This document shows positions 3,851-22,944 of a stretch of 27,737 bases of DNA, piece after piece. How positions within the stretch are numbered: the first letter of the stretch is position 1; each line of letters starts with the position of its first letter. This DNA comes from a virus: the IMG/VR virus record IMGVR_UViG_3300032173_000033, positions 1 to 27,737 of that record; one strand, 5' to 3'. The notes under the pieces are model-generated. The model saw nothing but the letters and a program-made list of their open reading frames with translations, did not search any database and had not been told where the DNA came from. The translations under genes and the position numbers were made by a program.

Positions 3851-5359
3851 CTATACGGTATCTCTGGTATTACTACCTGCATCAGATAAAGAACTTTCTG
3901 CTTTAGGTGGAGCACCGTTATTTTTATTCGACATTGTTGCCGCAGTTTGAATAGGCTCTGTATACTTTCTAATATCAGAAGTGTATGAATCGGCAAGCAT
4001 AGCTTCAATTTCGTATGGCTCGTATCCATGCATAGCATACATATATTCAACGGGGCCACCAGATTGAGCGAGTGCCAAACCTTGTTTCTTTTCTTCTTCA
4101 TCAAAATATGAACATCCTGAGAATTTCACTCTAAACGAATATTCACCTTTTAATTGTTTAAGATGAAAGTTTACAAATCTTTCAAATTGGTCATACATAT
4201 GTTTTACAAAGTTAAAGTCTGCTAGGTTGGAATATTTCATTGTGACACCAGATTTAGATTCGCCACCAAATTGATTGCCCGCAACACCCGCTGAACTCCA
4301 GAAGTTTTGCTCACCCATACCAGATATATTATTCTGACTCTGTGCTTGGTCGAAGTTAATTGCTTCTGCTTTCATCATAGTCATAATAGATTTTGTACCC
4401 ATTGGAAGGTTAGCTTGTACCATACTGTTAAAGTCAGCACAAGTTTTGGCATCCATAATTGGTTTACCATCTTTATCTTTTGGGATTTCGAGTGCAATAA
4501 TTTTCCACGTATCAAGTTCAATTTTAGATTTCAAAATATCCTTGTAATGTTGAATTTGCACAGCATCTTTAAATGTACCACTCAACGGAGGACGCATAGT
4601 TGCATTGTAATCTTGGAATTTGAATATTACAGACTTCTCAGGTGGCATAGGCTTCCAAACGTTGATGGCCATATAATCCTTATATTGTGCAATAATATCT
4701 TCCCACCAAAATTGGAATTCTGGTGCATACCAAGCTAATTCATTTGTGTATTTGGCAAAATAAACCAAGTTAAATGCATATGTGTATCCCAAATTTGGGA
4801 CTCTACCTGTGATTTTACAATAATCTCGTGGCATTTCTTGAAGTTCAGTGTAATTATCATCCTCACGCAGATAGTAATAAGCACCACCATCAAGCATAGT
4901 GTGGAACATTACATTTCTGAATTGTTCTATTGGACGAAACTTTTTAAGCCATTCGTTGCTACGAAGCTTGCAATTATCATATGTTTTACGTTTGCCTTTT
5001 TCTTTAGGCGGAATTGACTCTGGAATAAGTTGATATTTAAAGCCAAGAATACTCGCAAAGTGTGAAACTGAGCGGAAGTATTGCATTACCGAACCTTCAA
5101 GGAATTGAGAAACGTCACGTAATTCTTTTTCGAAATATTGAGGTTGCGAAATCCACCTTTTAAGTTGGTCTGCTGTTGGATTTGTAGCTGAGTTGTTAAC
5201 GTCTTTCATCAATTGATTAGCATAGAATGGATTGTAAAATGAATTCATTCGTGATAAATTTTGATGAGTTCTATTTGCAAATTCAGTTATAAATTGCTCG
5301 GATGAGAATTGTTCTGAAAGTGGAGTTTGTGGTTCTGGTGTTTTTTTAGTTCGTGCCAA
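3851..5359 (-). CDS. Portal protein
   Basis: A 502-aa protein whose first codon is TTG at 5359, preceded by AGGTGAAAAT; no better ATG lies nearby. It starts MARTKKTPEPQTPLSEQF. The size, the position directly after the large terminase, and the mixed alpha/beta chain with a long central helix region and a Gln/Asn-rich loop (INFDQAQSQNNISGMGEQN) fit the SPP1-like portal family. The C-terminus is disordered (NGAPPKAESSLSDAGSN). The portal forms the dodecameric ring through which DNA enters the head and to which the terminase docks. Identification is by context and general composition rather than a diagnostic motif. Confidence 0.75.
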   Translation of the reverse strand: MARTKKTPEPQTPLSEQFSSEQFITEFANRTHQNLSRMNSFYNPFYANQLMKDVNNSATNPTADQLKRWISQPQYFEKELRDVSQFLEGSVMQYFRSVSHFASILGFKYQLIPESIPPKEKGKRKTYDNCKLRSNEWLKKFRPIEQFRNVMFHTMLDGGAYYYLREDDNYTELQEMPRDYCKITGRVPNLGYTYAFNLVYFAKYTNELAWYAPEFQFWWEDIIAQYKDYMAINVWKPMPPEKSVIFKFQDYNATMRPPLSGTFKDAVQIQHYKDILKSKIELDTWKIIALEIPKDKDGKPIMDAKTCADFNSMVQANLPMGTKSIMTMMKAEAINFDQAQSQNNISGMGEQNFWSSAGVAGNQFGGESKSGVTMKYSNLADFNFVKHMYDQFERFVNFHLKQLKGEYSFRVKFSGCSYFDEEEKKQGLALAQSGGPVEYMYAMHGYEPYEIEAMLADSYTSDIRKYTEPIQTAATMSNKNNGAPPKAESSLSDAGSNTRDTV

Positions 5360-5389: not shown

Positions 5390-6592
5390 TTATAAATTAA
5401 AGTGGAAGTACAGAGCATAATCATCTTGTGGTGCTTTGTTGAGATTTTTAATATTATATTCTTCTTCTTCCATTATTACAGATAAACCATACGCCAAACT
5501 TGTTGCTCTGTCTCGTTTAGTTCCTTTGTCAATACGTTCATACTTAATATTATTAAACCCAGTTTCAACCTGTTTTATATTTGAAAGTTCTTTTGTCAAT
5601 TCATCTGCCTGTAAATAACAAACATATTCATCAAATGACATTTCTTCATTTTTGTATAATGAATCAACTTCAATTGCAGGTTTCAATATCTTTAAACTAC
5701 CATTCTCGAAACACGATTTCATATAAGTGTACATTGTATTATTTGAATTATTAGTTGCAGTTATACCTCTAATCATTGGAACCGCATCTTTAAGAGACTT
5801 ACTATCTTCGTCATCATCTAATATAAGTGGTGGATATTCTACTGTCTCACCTGTTTTTGGGTCAGTATATTCCCAAGCCTCATAGAATAGTCTTGGTAAG
5901 TGTTCTCCATTACCTCTCATATCAACAACTATTTTAGCTGTGTTAGGGAATCTTGTGTGATATAATTCTCTCAAGAAATCTCTTTGCTTATCCAAGGTAG
6001 TCCCTCTGTGTAATTGTGTGAATACTACTTCCTTAGATATTGTACCATTGGCTCTAATCTTCTTTTTAATAACATGTGTAATTGCGTTATCCGCATCATT
6101 TGCTGTAGATGTTGCAACGTCATGAGTAATTAAATATTCAGACTTAGATTTCTTTGGCTGTTGCAATTCACACTTTTCAAGAGTTCTACATGGATAGGTA
6201 AGTTCATAAGGGTAATAACTATCCCCAGACGAGCCAACAAATACAGCGTCATACTCATACAAAAAAGCCTCTTTGGTCATAGTTGGTTTAGTTCTTTCTT
6301 CTTCTATGTCAGATATGTCAAATATTTTTGCCTGTATACCAACCTTATAATCAAGACAACAAACAAAATAGTTTGCATCAGCACTAACCATTTTATCATA
6401 AAAGTATTTGAATCTTTTATACAAATCAGACGTTTTTAGATATGCAGAAGATATGAATATAACTTTACCTTTCTCATATTCTCCATGGTTTATTGCAGTA
6501 GGTCTTTTAGTTTTTGTCATAGGAATTAATATTTCTTCTATAACTTTGTCGCTTACAAGTCGTGCTTCGTCAATAAGGATGTACAAATTATT
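5390..6592 (-). CDS. terL: Terminase large subunit, exon 2 (Walker B and nuclease domain)
   Basis: This is the second exon of the packaging motor gene, 400 codons plus stop. It opens with Walker B (NNLYILIDEARLV; D and E at about 191-192 of the spliced protein), which alone would make no sense as an N-terminus. The nuclease domain follows, with acidic residues in ITHDVATS, KIVVDMRGNGEH and TKRDRATSLAYGLS, the RNase H-like pattern of TerL nucleases that cut concatemeric DNA. Joined to exon 1 it gives a 583-aa protein, normal for the family. An in-frame GTG lies at 6595, but it has no convincing ribosome binding site, so I read this segment as an exon and not an independent gene. Confidence 0.85.
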   Translation of the reverse strand, partial: NNLYILIDEARLVSDKVIEEILIPMTKTKRPTAINHGEYEKGKVIFISSAYLKTSDLYKRFKYFYDKMVSADANYFVCCLDYKVGIQAKIFDISDIEEERTKPTMTKEAFLYEYDAVFVGSSGDSYYPYELTYPCRTLEKCELQQPKKSKSEYLITHDVATSTANDADNAITHVIKKKIRANGTISKEVVFTQLHRGTTLDKQRDFLRELYHTRFPNTAKIVVDMRGNGEHLPRLFYEAWEYTDPKTGETVEYPPLILDDDEDSKSLKDAVPMIRGITATNNSNNTMYTYMKSCFENGSLKILKPAIEVDSLYKNEEMSFDEYVCYLQADELTKELSNIKQVETGFNNIKYERIDKGTKRDRATSLAYGLSVIMEEEEYNIKNLNKAPQDDYALYFHFNL

Positions 6593-6880
6593 CACACTAA
6601 ATCGCTAATTTAATGTCGTTTCTTTCGAAACTGCTATATGTCTCCATATAGATTAGACTATATCATCATCTTGTATAAACAAGAGACTTGCGTTTCCATC
6701 ACCAATCGCTTGTGATGTACGAGTTTTCACTCTAGTCGTTGAGGGCATGATTAATCATTTCCCTGCTGATTGTCTCTATTCTTGAAATTGTCACACTTTG
6801 GTATTCAAGACTTAACGAGGGTTTCCAGCATATAAGCAAGTTTTTCATATAATATCACTACTATATGCCACTACAATTTA
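6593..6880 (-). ncRNA. Group I self-splicing intron in the large terminase gene
   Basis: This 288-nt segment interrupts the terminase frame and has group I core signatures on the minus strand. P1: exon CCATT pairs with AGTGG, placing a U-G wobble at the 5' splice site after exon CAT. P4-P5-like helix: AGGG at 6764-6761 with CCCT at 6745-6742, enclosing ATGATTAATCAT. P7: GACTA (6737-6733) pairs with TAGTC (6660-6656), in the familiar contexts CAACGACTA and GATATAGTCT. Also present are a GAGT-GAAA-ACTC hairpin, a P8-like TCTTGT/ACAAGA hairpin, and a terminal G (6593) before exon 2. Splicing there joins the two halves in frame. It encodes no endonuclease. Exact ends could move by a few bases. 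Confidence 0.87.
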
Positions 6881-7429
6881 ATGGAATCTCCATGAACGAG
6901 CACTATCTCCGCTTCTACCTAATACAATAGCTCTAATTTCAGAACCATTTCTAAATTCAACTACACAATCCTCAGAGCCAGTTTTTATATTGGTTATTTC
7001 TCTGGCTATTGCAGGATATTTCATCAATTCGCCTTTAACTTTTTGTATAATTACGTTTCTTGCTTGTTGTCCAACTCCAGATGCTATACCACATTTTAAC
7101 CCAGAATACAAAATGCATGATATTATAAAGAACAATCCACACAAAAATGATTTTCCGAGACCACGACAACAAATTAGCATTACCCATTGATTCCTTGCCA
7201 TAGCCCTCAAAATCAATCTTTGGAATAAAAATATCTTTAATCCCAACACTTCTGTTGCAAATTTATCTGGATATTCTCTATAGTAATCTATGAATTTTAC
7301 CCATTCTTCTTGATTCAGATTTTCATTTTTATTCTTTATTGGGTCATAACTATCTGAGCTTGCATAGTCTTCATATGCAAACTCTTTTTCTTTTCTACTT
7401 TTCTTGCTAAAGTTTTTCTGAACAGCCAT
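6881..7429 (-). CDS. terL: Terminase large subunit, exon 1 (ATPase N-terminal half)
   Basis: The first 183 codons of the packaging ATPase start at the ATG at 7429 (MAVQKNFSKKSRKEKEFAYE) after AGGTGGTTAT. Residues 88-94 are the Walker A-type loop (CRGLGKS) that binds ATP, preceded by the Q-motif-like FLFQRLILRAMARNQW. The exon ends in LGRSGDSARSWRFH, the segment that in terminases comes directly before the Walker B strand; Walker B itself is on exon 2, beyond the intron. Read without splicing, a TAA follows after this H, giving a useless fragment. It starts 8 nt after the putative small-subunit gene, so the two are probably co-translated. Confidence 0.88.
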
Positions 7430-12147: not shown

Positions 12148-13647
12148 TTAGTTATTGAATTTCCATATAAATCCGCCAGATTTCTTTCTGTTTCCATTAC
12201 AACATGAAGATATATTAGACTTGTTTATATTTGTTTCTAATGAAGCTTCCGTTATAGAATTATAATTATTAACAAATTCACCATTCAAATCTAATTGAAT
12301 TATAGATTTTCCTCTTAACTTACCATTAATTTTCCCATTGTTTGACATTACTTCTTCTATATTATAATACAAATATCCTATTGAATTTCCTTGTTTTAAC
12401 CATTTTATAATTGTACTTCTACATACATCAAACTCAACTGATAAATCTTGCGTATTTTTCATGCCTGCATTATATTTGTTCCAACATAGCACTTTATAAC
12501 TCTCCATAGAAGATGAATAAATTAATTTAAAATCTACTTTGTGTACATCTTTTATATATTTCATAAGAGTGTTTTTGCATTTTTCTTCTAACCAATCGAA
12601 ATCACTCTTTCTACAATCTATTATTTCATATAAATATCCGTTATCAACTGCTATATTATATTTTTCCAAATCGTTACGTTGTTCTTCTTCTAATGACCTA
12701 CCACGACCAGTGTACTTATAGTGTTGTTCACCATGTATTTCAATTATCAAATTAATATTAGGAATGTATATATCATATTTTCTGTTTCCCAAATCGATTA
12801 ATTTGGGTGAATATTCTGCGTTAAATTCAACGTCTACTTCCTTTAATATGTTTTGAACAAATTTTTGTGGTATACTTATCCCATCAGAGCAAACTTTACA
12901 TCCAAATCCATATGAACTTAAATCATTTATTTTCATCTTTTTAATCGTATTGCAATTCGGGCATATTAATTCTACTTTTCTATGAGTTCTTATAGTGTAG
13001 TTATCTGCATCATTTGGATTACCAAAATACTTGACCAAATCAGGTCTAAGCAATGATAACCTATTCTTGTCACACACCACGCTTCCAGAACAGACTGGAC
13101 ATCCATAGCCTTGTTGTAAATTTCCCCAAGAAGCACTCCACTCGTGACCATCTATTATGCATCTACATTTTAAATGTGATAGACTACCATCAAAAGATTC
13201 ACTTATTATGTCTATGTTTGGATTTATATTTTTTAATTTTTCCTTACATATGAAAATATCCATTCTTCTACTTATCCCACAAATCGGACAATTTTTACCT
13301 GATAATAATTCATTATAACTTGATTTAAATAAATAACCATCTATCATACATCTACACTCAAGTTTAGTTTTTGTATTTTTATAATTGCTACTAATTATTT
13401 CTATATTATTCTTTTTCATATTTTCTTTTACTTCTTCAATTGAGTATTTTATATTTCCAGCACACTTAGGGCAACCATATCCATTGGACAAATTAGCCCA
13501 TTTTGCGTTCCACTCGTACCCATCAAGTTCACACTTGCATTTTAAGTATGATGAATTATTAATATATTCATTACTCATTATTATTATGTTTTTGTTTATT
13601 AATTTTAGCCTATCTTTACAAATTTCTAAAGTCAATGCTTTACCCAT
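12148..13647 (-). CDS. EDxHD (Vsr-like) homing endonuclease with zinc repeats and NUMOD1
   Basis: The start chosen is the ATG at 13647 (MGKALTLEICKDRLK) because AGGAGGATTATGCAAA precedes it; the open frame goes further but into a terminator. The 499-aa protein has several N-terminal zinc-ribbon-like modules, each with CxC and later CPxC pairs (for example KCKCELDGYEW with YGCPKC). The nuclease core shows FNAEY, RKYDIYIP and IIEIHGEQHY, matching the E-D-xHD pattern of I-Bth0305I-type, Vsr-fold enzymes. The C-terminus holds an HTH segment (LSVEFDVCRSTIIKWLKQG) and a NUMOD1-like DNA-binding repeat ending KKSGGFIWKF. It is free-standing, between the beta-CASP and phosphoesterase genes, and related to the protein at 21628-22944. 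Confidence 0.85.
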   Translation of the reverse strand: MGKALTLEICKDRLKLINKNIIIMSNEYINNSSYLKCKCELDGYEWNAKWANLSNGYGCPKCAGNIKYSIEEVKENMKKNNIEIISSNYKNTKTKLECRCMIDGYLFKSSYNELLSGKNCPICGISRRMDIFICKEKLKNINPNIDIISESFDGSLSHLKCRCIIDGHEWSASWGNLQQGYGCPVCSGSVVCDKNRLSLLRPDLVKYFGNPNDADNYTIRTHRKVELICPNCNTIKKMKINDLSSYGFGCKVCSDGISIPQKFVQNILKEVDVEFNAEYSPKLIDLGNRKYDIYIPNINLIIEIHGEQHYKYTGRGRSLEEEQRNDLEKYNIAVDNGYLYEIIDCRKSDFDWLEEKCKNTLMKYIKDVHKVDFKLIYSSSMESYKVLCWNKYNAGMKNTQDLSVEFDVCRSTIIKWLKQGNSIGYLYYNIEEVMSNNGKINGKLRGKSIIQLDLNGEFVNNYNSITEASLETNINKSNISSCCNGNRKKSGGFIWKFNN

Positions 13648-13675
13648 TTTGCATAATCCTCCTATATTATAAAAT

Positions 13676-13711
13676 ATAAAAGGAGTGGGCGGAGTTACCC
13701 GCCAAATCTCC
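13676..13711 (-). terminator. Rho-independent terminator after the beta-CASP gene
   Basis: On the minus strand GGAG, then GGCGG-GTAACT-CCGCC, then CTCC form a nested stem followed directly by TTTTATATTTTAT. It begins 6 nt after the stop codon of the metallo-beta-lactamase-fold gene and precedes the homing endonuclease ribosome binding site, so it would separate the two transcripts. Confidence 0.8.
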
Positions 13712-13717
13712 GTATTT

Positions 13718-15148
13718 CTAAATTTCAATAACTAAATCTTTATATGGAACCCAGATTTTAGTCGTTTTATCTTTCTTTCTACATTCTTTTTCTAATAGTT
13801 CTGCAAAATGAATCCTATTAGGGTTTTCCCCATGAACAAGATATATTGATTTTGCATTAATATTACTATAGGCTTCCAATAGTCTATTATGTTGCATGTG
13901 ACTTGAGAAACTATTTAAAACCATTACTTTGGCTTTATTTTGAATTTCTAGTCCGTCAATTTCAATATATTTCTTTTTACCGTCTTTTATTTGAGTAGCC
14001 AATGAGCCTTCATCTGAGAATCCGATAAACATAATCATGGCTCTTGGATTACCAAGTTCTTTAATTAGCCAATTCTTAATTCTACCGTTTTCACAGAACC
14101 CAGAACACGCTATCACTATTTTAGAACCATCATTTCTTGTAGCCATTTCACTATCTTCCCATTCTGATATCAAGTGCAAATTATCCCATTTCAAAATCTT
14201 ATCCCAAATTTCAACATCTTTTTTAGGAATACAATTTCCAAACATTTTTGCAATCTTGACAGCTAAGGGAGAATCGAGTAGAATTGGCACATCAAATTCT
14301 TTATTATCACCATACAACATATATAGTTCATATAGTATTTCAGCAGAACGATTATATGCGAAACTAGGGATTATAAGCGAAGATTTATTACCAATACATG
14401 TTTCCCTTACGGCTACTTGTATCTTCTCTATATCCTTATCTCTAGTCTTCTGATTACATGTTTTAATATTCATTGCATATGTAGACTCAAGTAAACAAAC
14501 ATCTGCACTATCAACTACGTTAAACGGCTCTAGGAATGGTTTATTGATGTCAGTATTTCCATAGTCCCCGCCATAGAGTATTTTCTTTCTATAGTTTGAT
14601 TCTCCATCACAAATAAATATTTCAATTTGTTGCGAATTTGCAACATGGTAAGTCGGAGTATATCTAATTTGTGTATATTCGTTTATCCAAATTTTAGAAA
14701 AACTTTCACATTCAATTATATGTTCCAACATAATATCAATATCATCTTTTGTATATAATGGTTTAACTGGTTTGCCAGTTACTTTTGAAATATACTCAGA
14801 ATCTTTTTGTGTAATTTTCAAACCATCTTCAAATGCAATTTTAAAATACTCTTTACTTCCAATTGGAGCAAACACTTTTGGTCTGCACCCAATATTAAAT
14901 AGATGACACAACTGCCCAAAATGGTCAATATGCCACTCTTGTATTAAAATATTTTCCAATTTCTTAATCTTGAATTTAAAATTTCTACTATTTATTTGGT
15001 ATTGCTTAATTTTATCTTTACATTGATGCATTCCTGCACCTATCATAGTTAATGTATCACGGTATTCCAATAAATACATTGACCCAGTGACCGTTTCACT
15101 CGCTTCTCCAATGAAGGAAATTTTAGCTTTATTCTTACTCTTCGCCAT
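13718..15148 (-). CDS. Beta-CASP metallo-beta-lactamase-fold RNase-like protein
   Basis: The ATG at 15148 (MAKSKNKAKISFIGEASETV) has GGAGCGTGACT before it and is preferred to the longer frame. The 476-aa chain follows the CPSF73/RNase J-like plan: an N-terminal FIGEASETVTGSMYLLE strand; the metal motif EWHIDH at 71-76; H168 (TYHVAN); GGDYG with D195; beta-CASP motif A LLESTY (E221); SFSSHMQH (motif B, H417); and YLVHGE (motif C, H439). Relatives process or degrade RNA. The first His of HxHxDH is Glu71 here, and the usual VDCG strand reads MIGAGM, so the metal site may be altered or reduced. It overlaps the upstream 122-aa gene and ends in a terminator. Confidence 0.85.
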   Translation of the reverse strand: MAKSKNKAKISFIGEASETVTGSMYLLEYRDTLTMIGAGMHQCKDKIKQYQINSRNFKFKIKKLENILIQEWHIDHFGQLCHLFNIGCRPKVFAPIGSKEYFKIAFEDGLKITQKDSEYISKVTGKPVKPLYTKDDIDIMLEHIIECESFSKIWINEYTQIRYTPTYHVANSQQIEIFICDGESNYRKKILYGGDYGNTDINKPFLEPFNVVDSADVCLLESTYAMNIKTCNQKTRDKDIEKIQVAVRETCIGNKSSLIIPSFAYNRSAEILYELYMLYGDNKEFDVPILLDSPLAVKIAKMFGNCIPKKDVEIWDKILKWDNLHLISEWEDSEMATRNDGSKIVIACSGFCENGRIKNWLIKELGNPRAMIMFIGFSDEGSLATQIKDGKKKYIEIDGLEIQNKAKVMVLNSFSSHMQHNRLLEAYSNINAKSIYLVHGENPNRIHFAELLEKECRKKDKTTKIWVPYKDLVIEI

Positions 15149-15503
15149 AGTCACGCTCCAAGTATTCAACATATTCATCTTTTTCATTTATACGCATTTC
15201 TAATACGCAATAATATTTGTACGACAGTGCAAGCTTATTATTTAACATTTCTTTAAGCATCGAGTATTTCAAATTATAATCTTTACACAATTTCCGAAGA
15301 TTAATATTTTGAACACGAATTTCACGCTTGATTTCATTTAAGCTCATTCTATTAACATAATTTACACATGTGCCATTATTCATTTCAAACTCTAAATCAA
15401 TACAACCATTTTTACATGACAGACATTGAAGGTGTTTAGTTTTACCTCTATAGTCTGTGTTTAATGAATTACATTTTTCTGCTAATGGTGATTTATAGCA
15501 CAT
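15135..15503 (-). CDS. Unknown protein with Cys cluster and HTH-like C-terminus (122 aa)
   Basis: It starts MCYKSPLAEKCNSLNTDYRG after AGGAGATGATGACGT. The N-terminal 50 residues contain Cys at 2, 11, 27, 30 and 34 (CLSCKNGC), a likely zinc site. The C-terminal half is helical, with a possible helix-turn-helix (NLRKLCKDYNLKYSMLKEML). It may be a small DNA- or RNA-binding regulator; no family is recognised. Its 3' end overlaps the start of the beta-CASP gene by 14 nt, so the two are probably translationally coupled. Confidence 0.6.
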   Translation of the reverse strand: MCYKSPLAEKCNSLNTDYRGKTKHLQCLSCKNGCIDLEFEMNNGTCVNYVNRMSLNEIKREIRVQNINLRKLCKDYNLKYSMLKEMLNNKLALSYKYYCVLEMRINEKDEYVEYLERDYGEE

Positions 15504-15721: not shown

Positions 15722-16063
15722 TTATTTAATTTGTTCTCCGCGCTCATATATTTTATGATTTCTAATTTCTTCATTTTGGTTTTGTTCCCAAACTGAAATT
15801 ACATTTACGAAATGTTCGCTCGGAATCATTTCATCATAAGGTAAATTATCAAATTCTGGTTTAATCATACCATAGCAAGATGTCATTGTAATCCATTCAT
15901 CTATCCTTTGTGGCAGTCTTGCGATTAGTTCAATAGTGTCTTTAATCAATCTGGTCGTGTCTAATGCAGATTTTTCTTTATCATCTCTAATAAACTTATT
16001 TCTTTTCTCCATTAGCAACTCTAAATCAGCATTCAACATATCTCTAACTTTGCTCATTTCCAT
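15722..16063 (-). CDS. Helical protein of unknown function (113 aa)
   Basis: The start is the ATG at 16063 (MEMSKVRDMLNADLELLMEK), since GTGAGGTATAAA precedes it; the frame extends nine codons further without a binding site. The protein is largely helical and charged, with a short middle segment containing a single Cys (WITMTSCYGMIKPEF), and ends IYERGEQIK. No family is recognised. It is the first gene after the giant non-coding RNA region and is followed by a terminator, so it appears to be expressed on its own short transcript. Confidence 0.6.
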   Translation of the reverse strand: MEMSKVRDMLNADLELLMEKRNKFIRDDKEKSALDTTRLIKDTIELIARLPQRIDEWITMTSCYGMIKPEFDNLPYDEMIPSEHFVNVISVWEQNQNEEIRNHKIYERGEQIK

Positions 16064-16106
16064 TTTATACCTCACGGCGGGAAGACGCAACCTATTATTT
16101 ACTCTT

Positions 16107-16131
16107 TCGAGTTGGAAATTAGTTTATTATA
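16107..16131 (-). promoter_or_regulatory. Possible promoter for the gene at 15722-16063
   Basis: On the minus strand a perfect -10 hexamer TATAAT (16131-16126) lies about 60 nt before the start codon, just downstream of the terminator-like end of the non-coding RNA. The matching -35 region is poor (TATATC at 17-nt spacing), so this is only a candidate. Confidence 0.35.
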
Positions 16132-16155
16132 ATCCGAACTAATTAACAGATATAA

Positions 16156-16225
16156 ATAAAAGTAGTCTGCCACCTATCGCCAGTGTCGGAGACCCTCCAA
16201 CATCAACAAATGCGACAAACTACTT
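16156..16225 (-). terminator. Terminator-like 3' fold of the giant RNA
   Basis: On the minus strand AAGTAGTTTGTC (16225-16214) pairs over 12 positions, with G-U pairs, with GGCAGACTACTT (16171-16160), which runs straight into TTTTATTTATA. The loop carries an inner hairpin TTGGAG-GGT-CTCCGA. The long closing stem plus U-rich tract is the likely 3' end of the RNA, though the loop is larger than in ordinary terminators. Confidence 0.6.
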
Positions 16226-16705
16226 TATCCCCATATACTCGGAAGTGATATGGTTGGTCTGGTAGTCAATTTATTATTACTCCGAATTAACTAACGGAGG
16301 TTCGTAGATGTCCTATTTTACAGATGAACAGGTAAACTAATTGTTGACAATTACCGTCGGTCAACGGGAATTCGTTATCTACTTTACGAACACAGATTTT
16401 AAAAGTAATCTGTTTACACTTCTTGACTATGCACATTATTTTAAATGTACATTAATGCCTACAGACTCTCGGTACAGTAGGTCAATCTGCTGTAAACTTT
16501 GTTCCTTCTCCTCAATTTCCACGAGGGTTCAAATAAATTCGTTCACTTGTATTTCTTTGGTTCTTTTCACAGGTGGGTTAACATTTCCACGTCTCTTATC
16601 CAACTATCCATCATGGCTATTTTTAAGACTCGATTTACAAACTTAGCAAAAGTTATCAAAAATCAAATGTGTAGACTGCCAGTTTCTACTTCTGTGAATT
16701 TTGAG

Positions 16706-16717
16706 TTTAATGTTCTC
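16706..16717. repeat. 12-nt direct repeat, copy 1 (partner at 16926-16937)
   Basis: TTTAATGTTCTC occurs here and at 16926-16937 on the plus strand, one copy on each side of the tRNA-Gln. In the RNA both read GAGAACATTAAA. They may be the same structural motif used twice or the trace of a duplication. Confidence 0.7.
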
Positions 16718-16812
16718 CAACTTTCGTAGACCCATTCGTTCTACCTGAATTATAAGTCACAATTTATGGCTGCGAAACACCTGTAGAAGCTACGCAACTA
16801 CTCTTTTGCTGT

Positions 16813-16887
16813 TGGCTCTCTGCCAAGGGCTTGAACCTCAACTTCCAGAGTCAAATTCTGGGGGTGCTACCATTACACTAATAGAGA
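16813..16887 (-). tRNA. tRNA-Gln (anticodon TTG), embedded in the giant RNA
   Basis: The 75-nt minus-strand sequence folds as a cloverleaf. Acceptor TCTCTAT pairs with GCAGAGA (five Watson-Crick pairs, one A-C mismatch, one G-U). The D arm is GTG-TAATGGTAG-CAC, typical of Gram-positive tRNA-Gln. The anticodon arm is CCAGA-ATTTGAC-TCTGG with TTG at 16854-16852, and the T arm is TGAGG-TTCAAGC-CCTTG. It has G73, usual for glutamine, and an encoded CCA. There is one extra base between D and anticodon stems, and the acceptor mismatch makes it slightly degenerate. It decodes CAA, common in this AT-rich genome. No separate promoter is visible, so it would be cut out of the long RNA or be a structural part of it. 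Confidence 0.78.
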
Positions 16888-16925
16888 AAATAACACGATT
16901 TTAAGTCGGATAATCGTAAACCGCT

Positions 16926-16937
16926 TTTAATGTTCTC
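16926..16937. repeat. 12-nt direct repeat, copy 2 (partner at 16706-16717)
   Basis: The second copy of TTTAATGTTCTC (plus strand), 39 nt upstream of the tRNA-Gln in the direction of transcription. Surrounding bases differ from those of copy 1, so the repeat is short and exact only over the 12 nt. Confidence 0.7.
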
Positions 16938-17657
16938 ATTTTGATTGGTCGAGTAAACCATCCCTTATCTAAAATTACCTCCAATGTTGACACTAGTGGC
17001 GTAAAACTCAAAGGGTTAGTTTTGTTCAATACACATTTTTATTTTCGGATAAATCCTATTCGGAGTGGCAAATGTGCAAACCACTGAAAGAACTCCATGA
17101 ACACTGTGTCCGACTCAGCCTTCACTTCATAGTTCAAAATTTTACTGTACACTAACGTAGTACCTCTCGTTTTAAACCCACACATGTTTGTGCTTTGATA
17201 ACTCAGTAGCTCTGAGAAACTTCACGAAATTTATTAAACGACATTTTCGAAAGCCGTTACTCTCTTCTCATGTGTGGTGCTAAATAACCCAAGTCTAATT
17301 ATTTAGCCGTGTTAATATAAGTCATGCCTATCCTATGGATAAGAGATACTTAATCCCTCTCGCACATCACGTTGTTTACGGAGGACGTAGACTTAACTAC
17401 ACTTATCGAGTCGCACATGGCTTCTACAGGTACTCAATTTGTTTGACTTAATTAGAAGGCTTAATTTATCTCCATACATATACAAATTATTACGAGAATA
17501 ATATGGTAGGAGTTTCATCTTTTATGCCCCACATCTTTAGAAAGTGGTATTGTTTCACAATATTACTCTAATTTTGACTTAATATTATGTCGGGATTCGT
17601 GATAATTCACAACGAGAATTACAGGAATTTTAACCGACTTCTCTCGAATCTTGATTA

Positions 17658-17686
17658 ATTATACTACGAATACTCGCACTCGTCAA
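17658..17686 (-). promoter_or_regulatory. Strong sigma-A-type promoter of the giant RNA
   Basis: On the minus strand TTGACG (17686-17681), a 17-nt spacer and a perfect TATAAT (17663-17658) lie just after the HU stop codon. Transcription should start near 17651, at the beginning of the non-coding region. It is among the best promoters in the window. Confidence 0.87.
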
Positions 17687-17700
17687 GTGTTATATTTGTT

Positions 17701-17991
17701 TTATACCAATTTAGCTTTAAGCTTAGACATCGCGGTAAATTTCACTTTCTTACCCGCAGGCTTAGCTGAGATAGTAATCTTTTCTGTTGTATTCTTAGGG
17801 TTAACACCTTGACGTTCAGCTCTTGCTTTAGTTTCAGAAATTTTAAACTTACCACCGAACATTGGAATTTCTTCACCTGAGATAATTGAGTCTACAATTT
17901 TTGTTTCAAATGCTTCAAACATTGTTTCTGCTTCTTTTTTGCTCACATCGAATGTTTCACTTACCAATAGTACCAATTCTGCTTTAGTCAT
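17701..17991 (-). CDS. HU-family DNA-binding protein
   Basis: A 96-aa protein starting MTKAELVLLVSETFDVSKKE after AAGGAGAGAAAAA. It has the HU/IHF layout: a helical N-terminal dimerisation half, FGGKFKISETKARAERQGVN leading into the DNA-binding arm, a NPKNTTEKITISA segment equivalent to the conserved NPKTGE region, and KKVKFTAMSKLKAKL at the end. Length is typical (about 90). HU-type proteins bend and compact DNA and can help replication, packaging or recombination; phages such as SPO1 carry one (TF1). A phage-specific role here cannot be read from the sequence. It lies directly upstream of the promoter for the giant RNA, with a 123-nt gap on its other side containing only a GTAAGC/GCTTAC hairpin. 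Confidence 0.88.
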   Translation of the reverse strand: MTKAELVLLVSETFDVSKKEAETMFEAFETKIVDSIISGEEIPMFGGKFKISETKARAERQGVNPKNTTEKITISAKPAGKKVKFTAMSKLKAKLV

Positions 17992-21627: not shown

Positions 21628-22944
21628 TTATTCATATTTCCAAACAAATCCGCCCGCCGTTGACTTATGTCCTCTTGCACACATAGTAATGTTTGAAGCG
21701 TGTATTCCTACGTCAAGTCCAGCATCTGTTAAAGATTTATATTTTTCTATAAACTTACCGTCAATACTATATTTATATATCTCTTTACATCTATTACTTC
21801 TTTTACCCTTTTTGAATTTATTTGGTTCATATTTACATAAACAAAGCTCTGTACCTTTTATCAAATATCTTCTTATGGTAGCACTTGTTAATTTCAAACT
21901 TTTCCCAATTATTCTTGCGCTATATTCTCCGTTGTTCCACATTTCACAAGCTTTTATTATGTTACTCGTTGTACAGAATAAAAACACATCATCCCATATA
22001 ATATTAGACAAATCGAAATATGTTTCAAAAATTCCTATAAAACTTTCTTTCAACCAATTGTAATTACTATTTCTACAATCTACTATTACATAATTATTTA
22101 TTTGTATACCATTTTTAATTGCGTTTTTATATTTTAAATCATCATTACTCATTTGTTTGCTTAAAGAATGAAAATTGCCTAATATTTCATTATAGTGTTG
22201 CTCGCCATGAGTTTCTATAATCATATTTAAATATGGAATGTAAAAATCATATCTTTTCTTTTGCGACCAATTAAATGATTTTTGTGTTTCAAATTCTACT
22301 CCTAATTGATTTAAAATTGCTATGCAAAATTTCTCTGGTATTGAAATTCCATCCGAACATACTGGACATGCAAATTTATAATATGACAATTTGCTTATCC
22401 TCATTTCCTTTTTTGTATTACAATCTGGGCATCTTAATTGAACTACACTAGAACTACTAAAAGAATAATTATCCGCATCTTTTGGGTTTTCAAAATATTT
22501 AACCAAATCCGGTCTTTGTATAGAAAGTCTATTACCGTCCCATACTTCGTTTATTGAAAATTTATTTTCGGATGCACAGTATTTACATCCATGTCCTGAT
22601 TTAAATTCATTCCAAGTTTTAAAAAATTCACCATGTATATCACATATAAAAATAAGATTTTTGGAATTCCCACCCCAAGATTGTCCTTGTTTTAACATAT
22701 ATTCCAATTTGTTTAATTCTATAAACTTAGATATATTAATTATTGTATCTGGATTACCATTTCCAATTGTGCTTGGAATTTTACCAGCTCTTAATGATGA
22801 AACTGATGGGTATACAATATAACCTTCTGTGTTTAAACATTTAATTTTTTGATTGGCACTGGCGTAGTTCTCCCCATCAAATATTTTATAACCATTTTTA
22901 TTAAATAAACACTCTACATATTCATAATCAAGTTTCTTACTCAA
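21628..22944 (-). CDS. EDxHD (Vsr-like) homing endonuclease, second copy
   Basis: The frame starts at TTG (22944), with AAGGAGATAATTA before it. The 438-aa protein has an N-terminal HTH-like part, one zinc segment (LIFICDIHGEF to GCKYCASENK), then a block shared with the protein at 12148-13647: RPDLVKYFENPKDADNY, a CPDC...CPVCSDG zinc ribbon and SIPEKF. The nuclease core has VEFETQ, KRYDFYIP and IIETHGEQHY, so the E-D-xHD catalytic residues are intact. The C-terminus holds an HTH (ARIIGKSLKLTSATIRRYL) and a NUMOD1-like repeat ending STAGGFVWKYE. It sits 20 nt before the RNA polymerase gene, so that gene is a plausible protected target (inference). Confidence 0.84.
   Translation of the reverse strand: MSKKLDYEYVECLFNKNGYKIFDGENYASANQKIKCLNTEGYIVYPSVSSLRAGKIPSTIGNGNPDTIINISKFIELNKLEYMLKQGQSWGGNSKNLIFICDIHGEFFKTWNEFKSGHGCKYCASENKFSINEVWDGNRLSIQRPDLVKYFENPKDADNYSFSSSSVVQLRCPDCNTKKEMRISKLSYYKFACPVCSDGISIPEKFCIAILNQLGVEFETQKSFNWSQKKRYDFYIPYLNMIIETHGEQHYNEILGNFHSLSKQMSNDDLKYKNAIKNGIQINNYVIVDCRNSNYNWLKESFIGIFETYFDLSNIIWDDVFLFCTTSNIIKACEMWNNGEYSARIIGKSLKLTSATIRRYLIKGTELCLCKYEPNKFKKGKRSNRCKEIYKYSIDGKFIEKYKSLTDAGLDVGIHASNITMCARGHKSTAGGFVWKYE

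Follow-up and report, generated by a model that had tools for sequence, protein, structure and literature searches.

The described systems closest to this locus include the phage RNAs GOLLD and ROOL, single RNAs that form cages, and the type III toxin–antitoxin systems such as ToxIN, CptIN and AbiF with its RNA. Type III loci run from a promoter through an RNA and a terminator to an RNase gene, and the partner RNA of AbiF has been described in C. difficile (PMC12373285). A pseudo-ToxI RNA allows phage phiTE to silence ToxIN (PMC3475682), and phage tRNAs have been proposed as an answer to tRNases, nucleases resembling colicins D and E5 (PMC10264068). The paper that defined the PBECR domains predicted them to be phage RNases and named no RNA partner (PMC5512222). 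Our literature search yielded no link between a PBECR domain and a partner RNA and no function for the drum or skipping-rope RNAs; it did not cover their original description (Weinberg 2017), which may already mention the neighbours.

The window, the whole 27,737-nucleotide stretch of DNA analysed here, is an incomplete 27.7-kb virus record with phage genes for a portal, a single-chain RNA polymerase of the DxDGD type (Pfam RdRP), HU and a beta-CASP protein. About 1.5 kb separates the gene of the HU-like DNA-binding protein upstream (17701–17991, minus strand; PF00216, 2.8e-16) from a 114-amino-acid gene downstream (15722–16066, minus strand), which matches no Pfam family and has a homologue in the related phage contig L004 (L004:2295-2630) with gene order kept. 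Single-protein searches of viral contigs returned no relatives of the 114-amino-acid protein, HU or the beta-CASP protein, and when the whole stretch was compared directly with phages by BLAST, the tRNA described below was the only match. The longest stop-free run on the minus strand of the stretch is 60 codons, on which ground we rejected a protein-coding reading of that strand. Just upstream of the RNAs, a sigma-70-like promoter site, TTGACG-17-TATAAT, agrees with the consensus at 11 of 12 positions (17658–17686, minus strand). An earlier note had proposed a promoter pointing into a frameless region between HU and a small gene, with a terminator-like end; the promoter, the flanks and, on the minus strand, the absence of a frame all hold, whereas our scan of the minus strand gave no intrinsic terminator.

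The beta-CASP metallo-beta-lactamase-like RNase (13718–15187, minus strand) has lost its HxHxDH metal motif, reading QEW-HIDHFG where L004 has THFGHLDHQG, and may be inactive or altered. The apparent large terminase is split on the minus strand into Walker-A-like and Walker-B-like parts about 280 nt apart (5390–6595 and 6878–7429); the gap is perhaps an intron, and Rfam at its cut-off reports none between the two parts. Two large minus-strand proteins with a treble-clef zinc finger and NUMOD domains (12148–13728 and 21628–22944) resemble homing endonucleases inserted among the phage genes.

Of the 4,227 families in Rfam, exactly three match the stretch, and each does so on the minus strand. 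Drum RNA (RF02958, 17028–17135) scores 53.4 bits against a cut-off of 43 (E 1.6e-7) and spans the full model, positions 1–112 of 112. A tRNA-Gln with anticodon TTG (UUG) and an encoded CCA lies at 16813–16887; its cloverleaf and anticodon are recognized by ARAGORN and by Rfam (RF00005, 35 bits, over 16816–16887), and its acceptor stem holds one A–C mismatch. Skipping-rope RNA (RF02924, 16565–16699) scores marginally, at 38.1 bits against a cut-off of 36.7, and carries a long insert within a variable arm. It nevertheless keeps the outer stem, two inner stems and the loop–loop pseudoknot of its family: in an alignment of 20 members, 15 of its 17 nested pairs and all 5 pseudoknot pairs (UA, GU, GU, CG and AU) are intact. 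The family as a whole has a covariation score of 0.62, compared with 0.20 when shuffled and no more than 0.14 in slid controls, and the window copy and that of lactococcal phage LW81 share 85% identity over their 3′ halves.

Upstream of drum lies a fourth, undescribed structured RNA of three helices, which we call module B (17178–17308, minus strand), with a homologue at L004:2667-2813. All 24 of its pairs are formed in both sequences, with 6 two-sided compensatory changes and no broken pair, a count of compensatory changes that falls to 0 when the partners are slid by 1–3 columns; the single strands GAGAAGAGAG and TTAATAAA are conserved. No Rfam family matches module B, a covariance model run over 392 genomes gave one chance-level match (E 0.05), and two pattern scans gave chance matches and the already known L004 contig, which leaves one homologue among all sequences searched.

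The remainder of the array contains weaker candidates. At its 5′ end, a possible H-type pseudoknot, GATTCG..GTCGG..CGAATC-CCGAC (17589–17650, minus strand), was found by eye; it has no homologue and therefore no comparative support. Local folding z-scores are ordinary across the stretch with the exception of a strong fold at the 3′ end (16121–16260, minus strand; z = −4.0), with arms 16226–16216 and 16169–16159, which possibly forms the end structure of the array and likewise has no homologue. A candidate second promoter before skipping-rope, TTCGCA-16-TATAAT (16749–16776, minus strand), matches the consensus at 10 of 12 positions; in a region this rich in AT, such sites are expected by chance.

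The related contig L004 shows how these parts are arranged elsewhere. Its RNA polymerase is 74% identical to that of the window over the C-terminal part, and gene order is kept, but about 130 bases separate HU from the 114-amino-acid gene, with no insert, and module B follows the 114-amino-acid gene. As module B sits at a different place and the junction between HU and the 114-amino-acid gene can lack an insert, the RNAs are separable units, present in some phages and absent from others. In other relatives, two tRNAs follow soon after HU (L181), or a tRNA-Gln follows soon after the gene next to the RNA polymerase (L002 and L003); this slot is a hot spot for tRNAs and other RNAs in the phage group. 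The RNA polymerase gene of L002 and L003 is itself broken by endonuclease-bearing insertions (L002:2446-4807).

The earlier note was right that this is structured, non-coding, minus-strand RNA beside a tRNA in a phage of Firmicutes type, although it overlooked the tRNA-Gln gene and the two Rfam families within the stretch. Its central proposal, one giant ornate RNA of 1.5 kb forming a new class, gives way to at least four independent RNAs, three of them from known families; its fallback of two RNAs in tandem came near the truth. A single promoter, a single strand, the lack of a confirmed terminator between the parts and some long-range complementarity speak for one molecule. The arms of the long-range helix do exist, as a perfect 12-bp pairing of 17431–17420 with 16790–16779 across 629 nt, but perfect long-range helices of at least 12 bp occur in 7.9% of 1,000 dinucleotide shuffles, and two of at least 11 bp in 3.9%. 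Since the helix is thus within chance, and a second, 11-bp pairing (17346–17336 with 16602–16592) crosses it, it does not argue for a single molecule. Of perfect hairpins, which the earlier note put at ten or more, we count 6 with stems of at least 6 bp, compared with 3.1 ± 1.6 in shuffles. The chance level of the helix, the presence of a tRNA and of independent RNAs from known families within the stretch, and the occurrence of module B alone at a different site in L004 make a giant RNA very unlikely indeed, and the stretch is almost certainly an array of separate RNAs. Membership in GOLLD, ROOL or OLE was rejected, as drum, skipping-rope and the tRNA are the only matches among the 4,227 Rfam models up to E = 5; the earlier note had likewise been unable to match the stretch to GOLLD or ROOL.

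In bacteria, both RNA families sit beside genes for predicted RNases. A small gene lies just upstream of skipping-rope on the same strand at 10 of the 16 top loci, and all 9 of these genes that were tested are PBECR3/PBECR2 in Pfam; downstream of drum there is often a conserved gene, about 210 amino acids long, PBECR4 (Pfam, E 1e-33 to 1e-36), a neighbour that is no part of the Rfam definition of drum. PADLOC and NCBIfam offer no model for these PBECR3 and PBECR4 neighbours. The linkage also appears without selection of loci, when each RNA and each nuclease is searched for in the same 295 genomes of one Clostridia order. Of the 69 skipping-rope RNAs, 28 adjoin PBECR3, and 27 of the 38 PBECR3 matches adjoin skipping-rope, always on the same strand with the RNA downstream and gaps of 72–211 nt. 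Of the 17 drum RNAs, 11 adjoin PBECR4, and 11 of the 44 PBECR4 matches adjoin drum, always on the same strand with the RNA upstream and gaps of 52–72 nt. The cross-pairs, drum with PBECR3 or skipping-rope with PBECR4, number zero in these genomes. Drum and skipping-rope are thus very probably the partner RNAs of PBECR4 and PBECR3, respectively, in bacteria.

Orphan copies are not peculiar to phages, as 33 of the 44 PBECR4 matches and 41 of the 69 skipping-rope RNAs have no partner nearby. Three skipping-rope loci counted as alone (L231, L233 and L229) have a divergent or truncated relative of the nuclease upstream. Elsewhere, a bacterial genome holds three tandem skipping-rope RNAs about 115 nt apart with no nuclease nearby (L223:4856-5181, plus strand), and genome G086 carries a drum without a neighbouring PBECR4 about 1 kb from four bacterial tRNAs (L212:1501-2964, minus strand).

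The drum loci that were examined individually run from a strong promoter through the RNA and a terminator hairpin to the start codon of PBECR4. Across 61 drum copies, some of them without a PBECR4 gene, a strong promoter (at least 10 of 12 matches) lies within 90 nt upstream in 45 (3% in shuffles), and a terminator lies within 75 nt downstream in 52 (6% in shuffles); most sampled drum copies are laid out like type III toxin–antitoxin loci. Skipping-rope has a strong promoter of its own in 15 of 19 copies from bacteria, temperate phages and the Enterocloster phage CB473P3, compared with 5% in shuffles. In the same scan, neither a promoter nor a terminator accompanies the window drum, the LW81 skipping-rope or the drum and skipping-rope of an unrelated phage (L127, below), while the skipping-rope of phage 949 has a terminator only and that of the window a possible promoter.

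Both RNAs recur as orphans in the tRNA arrays of other phages. L127, the 92-kb record of an unrelated phage, came to light in a scan for the drum core pattern. In it, a 12-kb locus contains 13 tRNAs, a drum (4289–4397) and a skipping-rope (6142–6233) that directly follows a tRNA-Leu ending at 6141; neither PBECR3 nor PBECR4 was found in that record. Right after the drum, a second stretch with the drum-like tail GACTAGGCAAAGTACAAGCCGAAAGAAAAACGC is possibly a diverged tandem drum (L127:4398-4530, plus strand). BLAST with skipping-rope found the lactococcal phages 949, LW81, PMBT69 and phiL47, which we take to be virulent, the Enterocloster phages CB473P1-P3 and CB457P2, Dulem virus 33 and streptococcal prophages; Rfam confirms the copies in 949, LW81, CB473P3, Javan308, phiJH1301-1, Javan99 and Dulem virus 33, and the lactococcal phage copies score 76 bits. 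In LW81 the RNA begins 2 nt after a tRNA-Asp, and in 949 it is flanked by tRNA-Asp and tRNA-Pro. This abutment on tRNAs suggests that the ends of array RNAs are cut by tRNA processing. The LW81 array of tRNAs and skipping-rope also includes a tmRNA gene that is absent from its feature table (L253:2645-2994, plus strand). A tblastn search, the less sensitive method, found no PBECR3 in 949, LW81 or the Enterocloster phages. The Streptococcus suis prophage phiJH1301-1, by comparison, has a PBECR3 and skipping-rope pair beside its att site, and further S. suis prophages carry the same PBECR3 gene. In all, at least three unrelated phage lineages have drum, skipping-rope or both in their tRNA arrays.

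Built from a tRNA and from RNA families that are kept beside two RNA-cutting enzymes, the stretch looks like a kit of RNA antidotes to the defence enzymes of bacteria. One promoter would drive at least four structured RNAs, module B, drum, tRNA-Gln and skipping-rope, which probably arise by cleavage of a common transcript, in the manner of tRNAs. Drum and skipping-rope, which stand in the phage record without their partner RNases, would bind and silence the matching RNases of the host or of a resident or rival prophage, the tRNA would replace one that BECR-fold RNases may destroy, and module B would be another antidote. We lean slightly towards the view that this polycistronic array of orphan antitoxin-like RNAs and a tRNA blunts BECR-fold RNases, and give an even chance to the more specific proposal that the phage copies of drum and skipping-rope are decoys for these RNases. 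A broader picture, which we offer tentatively, is that the tRNA arrays of Firmicutes tailed phages are arsenals in which replacement tRNAs stand beside orphan antitoxin RNAs, a set that changes and whose members each target one family of BECR-fold defence RNases, with drum and skipping-rope the antitoxins of PBECR4 and PBECR3, and with module B and perhaps other pieces directed at RNases not yet recognized.

Two other readings compete with the decoy proposal. The RNAs might serve the phage itself by guiding, storing or regulating a BECR-type RNase encoded outside the fragment. Neither PBECR3 nor PBECR4 was found in the window record; because that record is an incomplete fragment of 27.7 kb, a matching nuclease may sit elsewhere in the genome, and temperate phages do carry full pairs of PBECR3 and skipping-rope. 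In those pairs, however, the RNA is adjacent to the nuclease rather than distant from it, and with neither nuclease family found in the 92 kb of L127 and PBECR3 unmatched by tblastn in 949 and LW81, this reading is unlikely. Alternatively, the RNAs could be decaying leftovers of toxin–antitoxin loci in a tRNA-array hot spot, with no present function. The low scores of both window copies (53 and 38 bits), which also count against the decoy proposal, fit such decay, as does the lack of promoters for the window drum and the L127 copies; bacteria, too, hold orphan skipping-rope copies, one of them beside a nuclease remnant (L229). Yet the window skipping-rope has kept its pseudoknot and nearly all of its stem pairs despite sequence change, the lactococcal phage copies score well, and the same RNAs recur in unrelated phage lineages, so that we regard mere leftovers as quite improbable.

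Two RNA families of unknown function thereby each gain a specific, testable partner, and two candidate types of RNA–RNase toxin–antitoxin system emerge whose RNases have the BECR fold, to which colicins D and E5 also belong. The proposed role also suggests why non-coding RNAs sit among phage tRNAs, as tRNA arrays may be counter-defence islands; if so, the unexplained RNAs in these arrays, perhaps even the large ones, could be searched for matching nucleases. The idea is directly testable because the cultured phages 949 and LW81 and the Enterocloster phages carry skipping-rope.

Compared with GOLLD and ROOL, the window shares a large non-coding phage stretch near a tRNA and differs in containing several RNAs, none of which matches either class. 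As members of their families, both window RNAs score above the cut-offs, and skipping-rope differs from a typical copy in its insert; unlike their bacterial counterparts, the two occur together in one phage array without flanking RNase genes. Bacterial drum loci share with type III systems a promoter, a structured RNA, a terminator and an RNase gene, and skipping-rope resembles type III RNAs in having a pseudoknot and in that it may be repeated in tandem. The RNases, however, are of the BECR fold, and skipping-rope follows its RNase gene and has a promoter of its own. The pairing of a structured RNA with an adjacent RNase gene is found in bacteria, whereas the window has RNAs only and lacks the PBECR4 gene that directly follows drum in bacteria. 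As in the pseudo-ToxI of phiTE (PMC3475682), a phage bears a relative of a bacterial candidate antitoxin RNA with the toxin absent, but the window combines several RNAs of unrelated partners with a tRNA, and its decoy role is putative. Like the arrays of Lactococcus phages 949 and LW81, in which tRNAs are interspersed with non-coding RNA including skipping-rope, the window mixes the two kinds of RNA, with a single tRNA and with drum and module B in addition.
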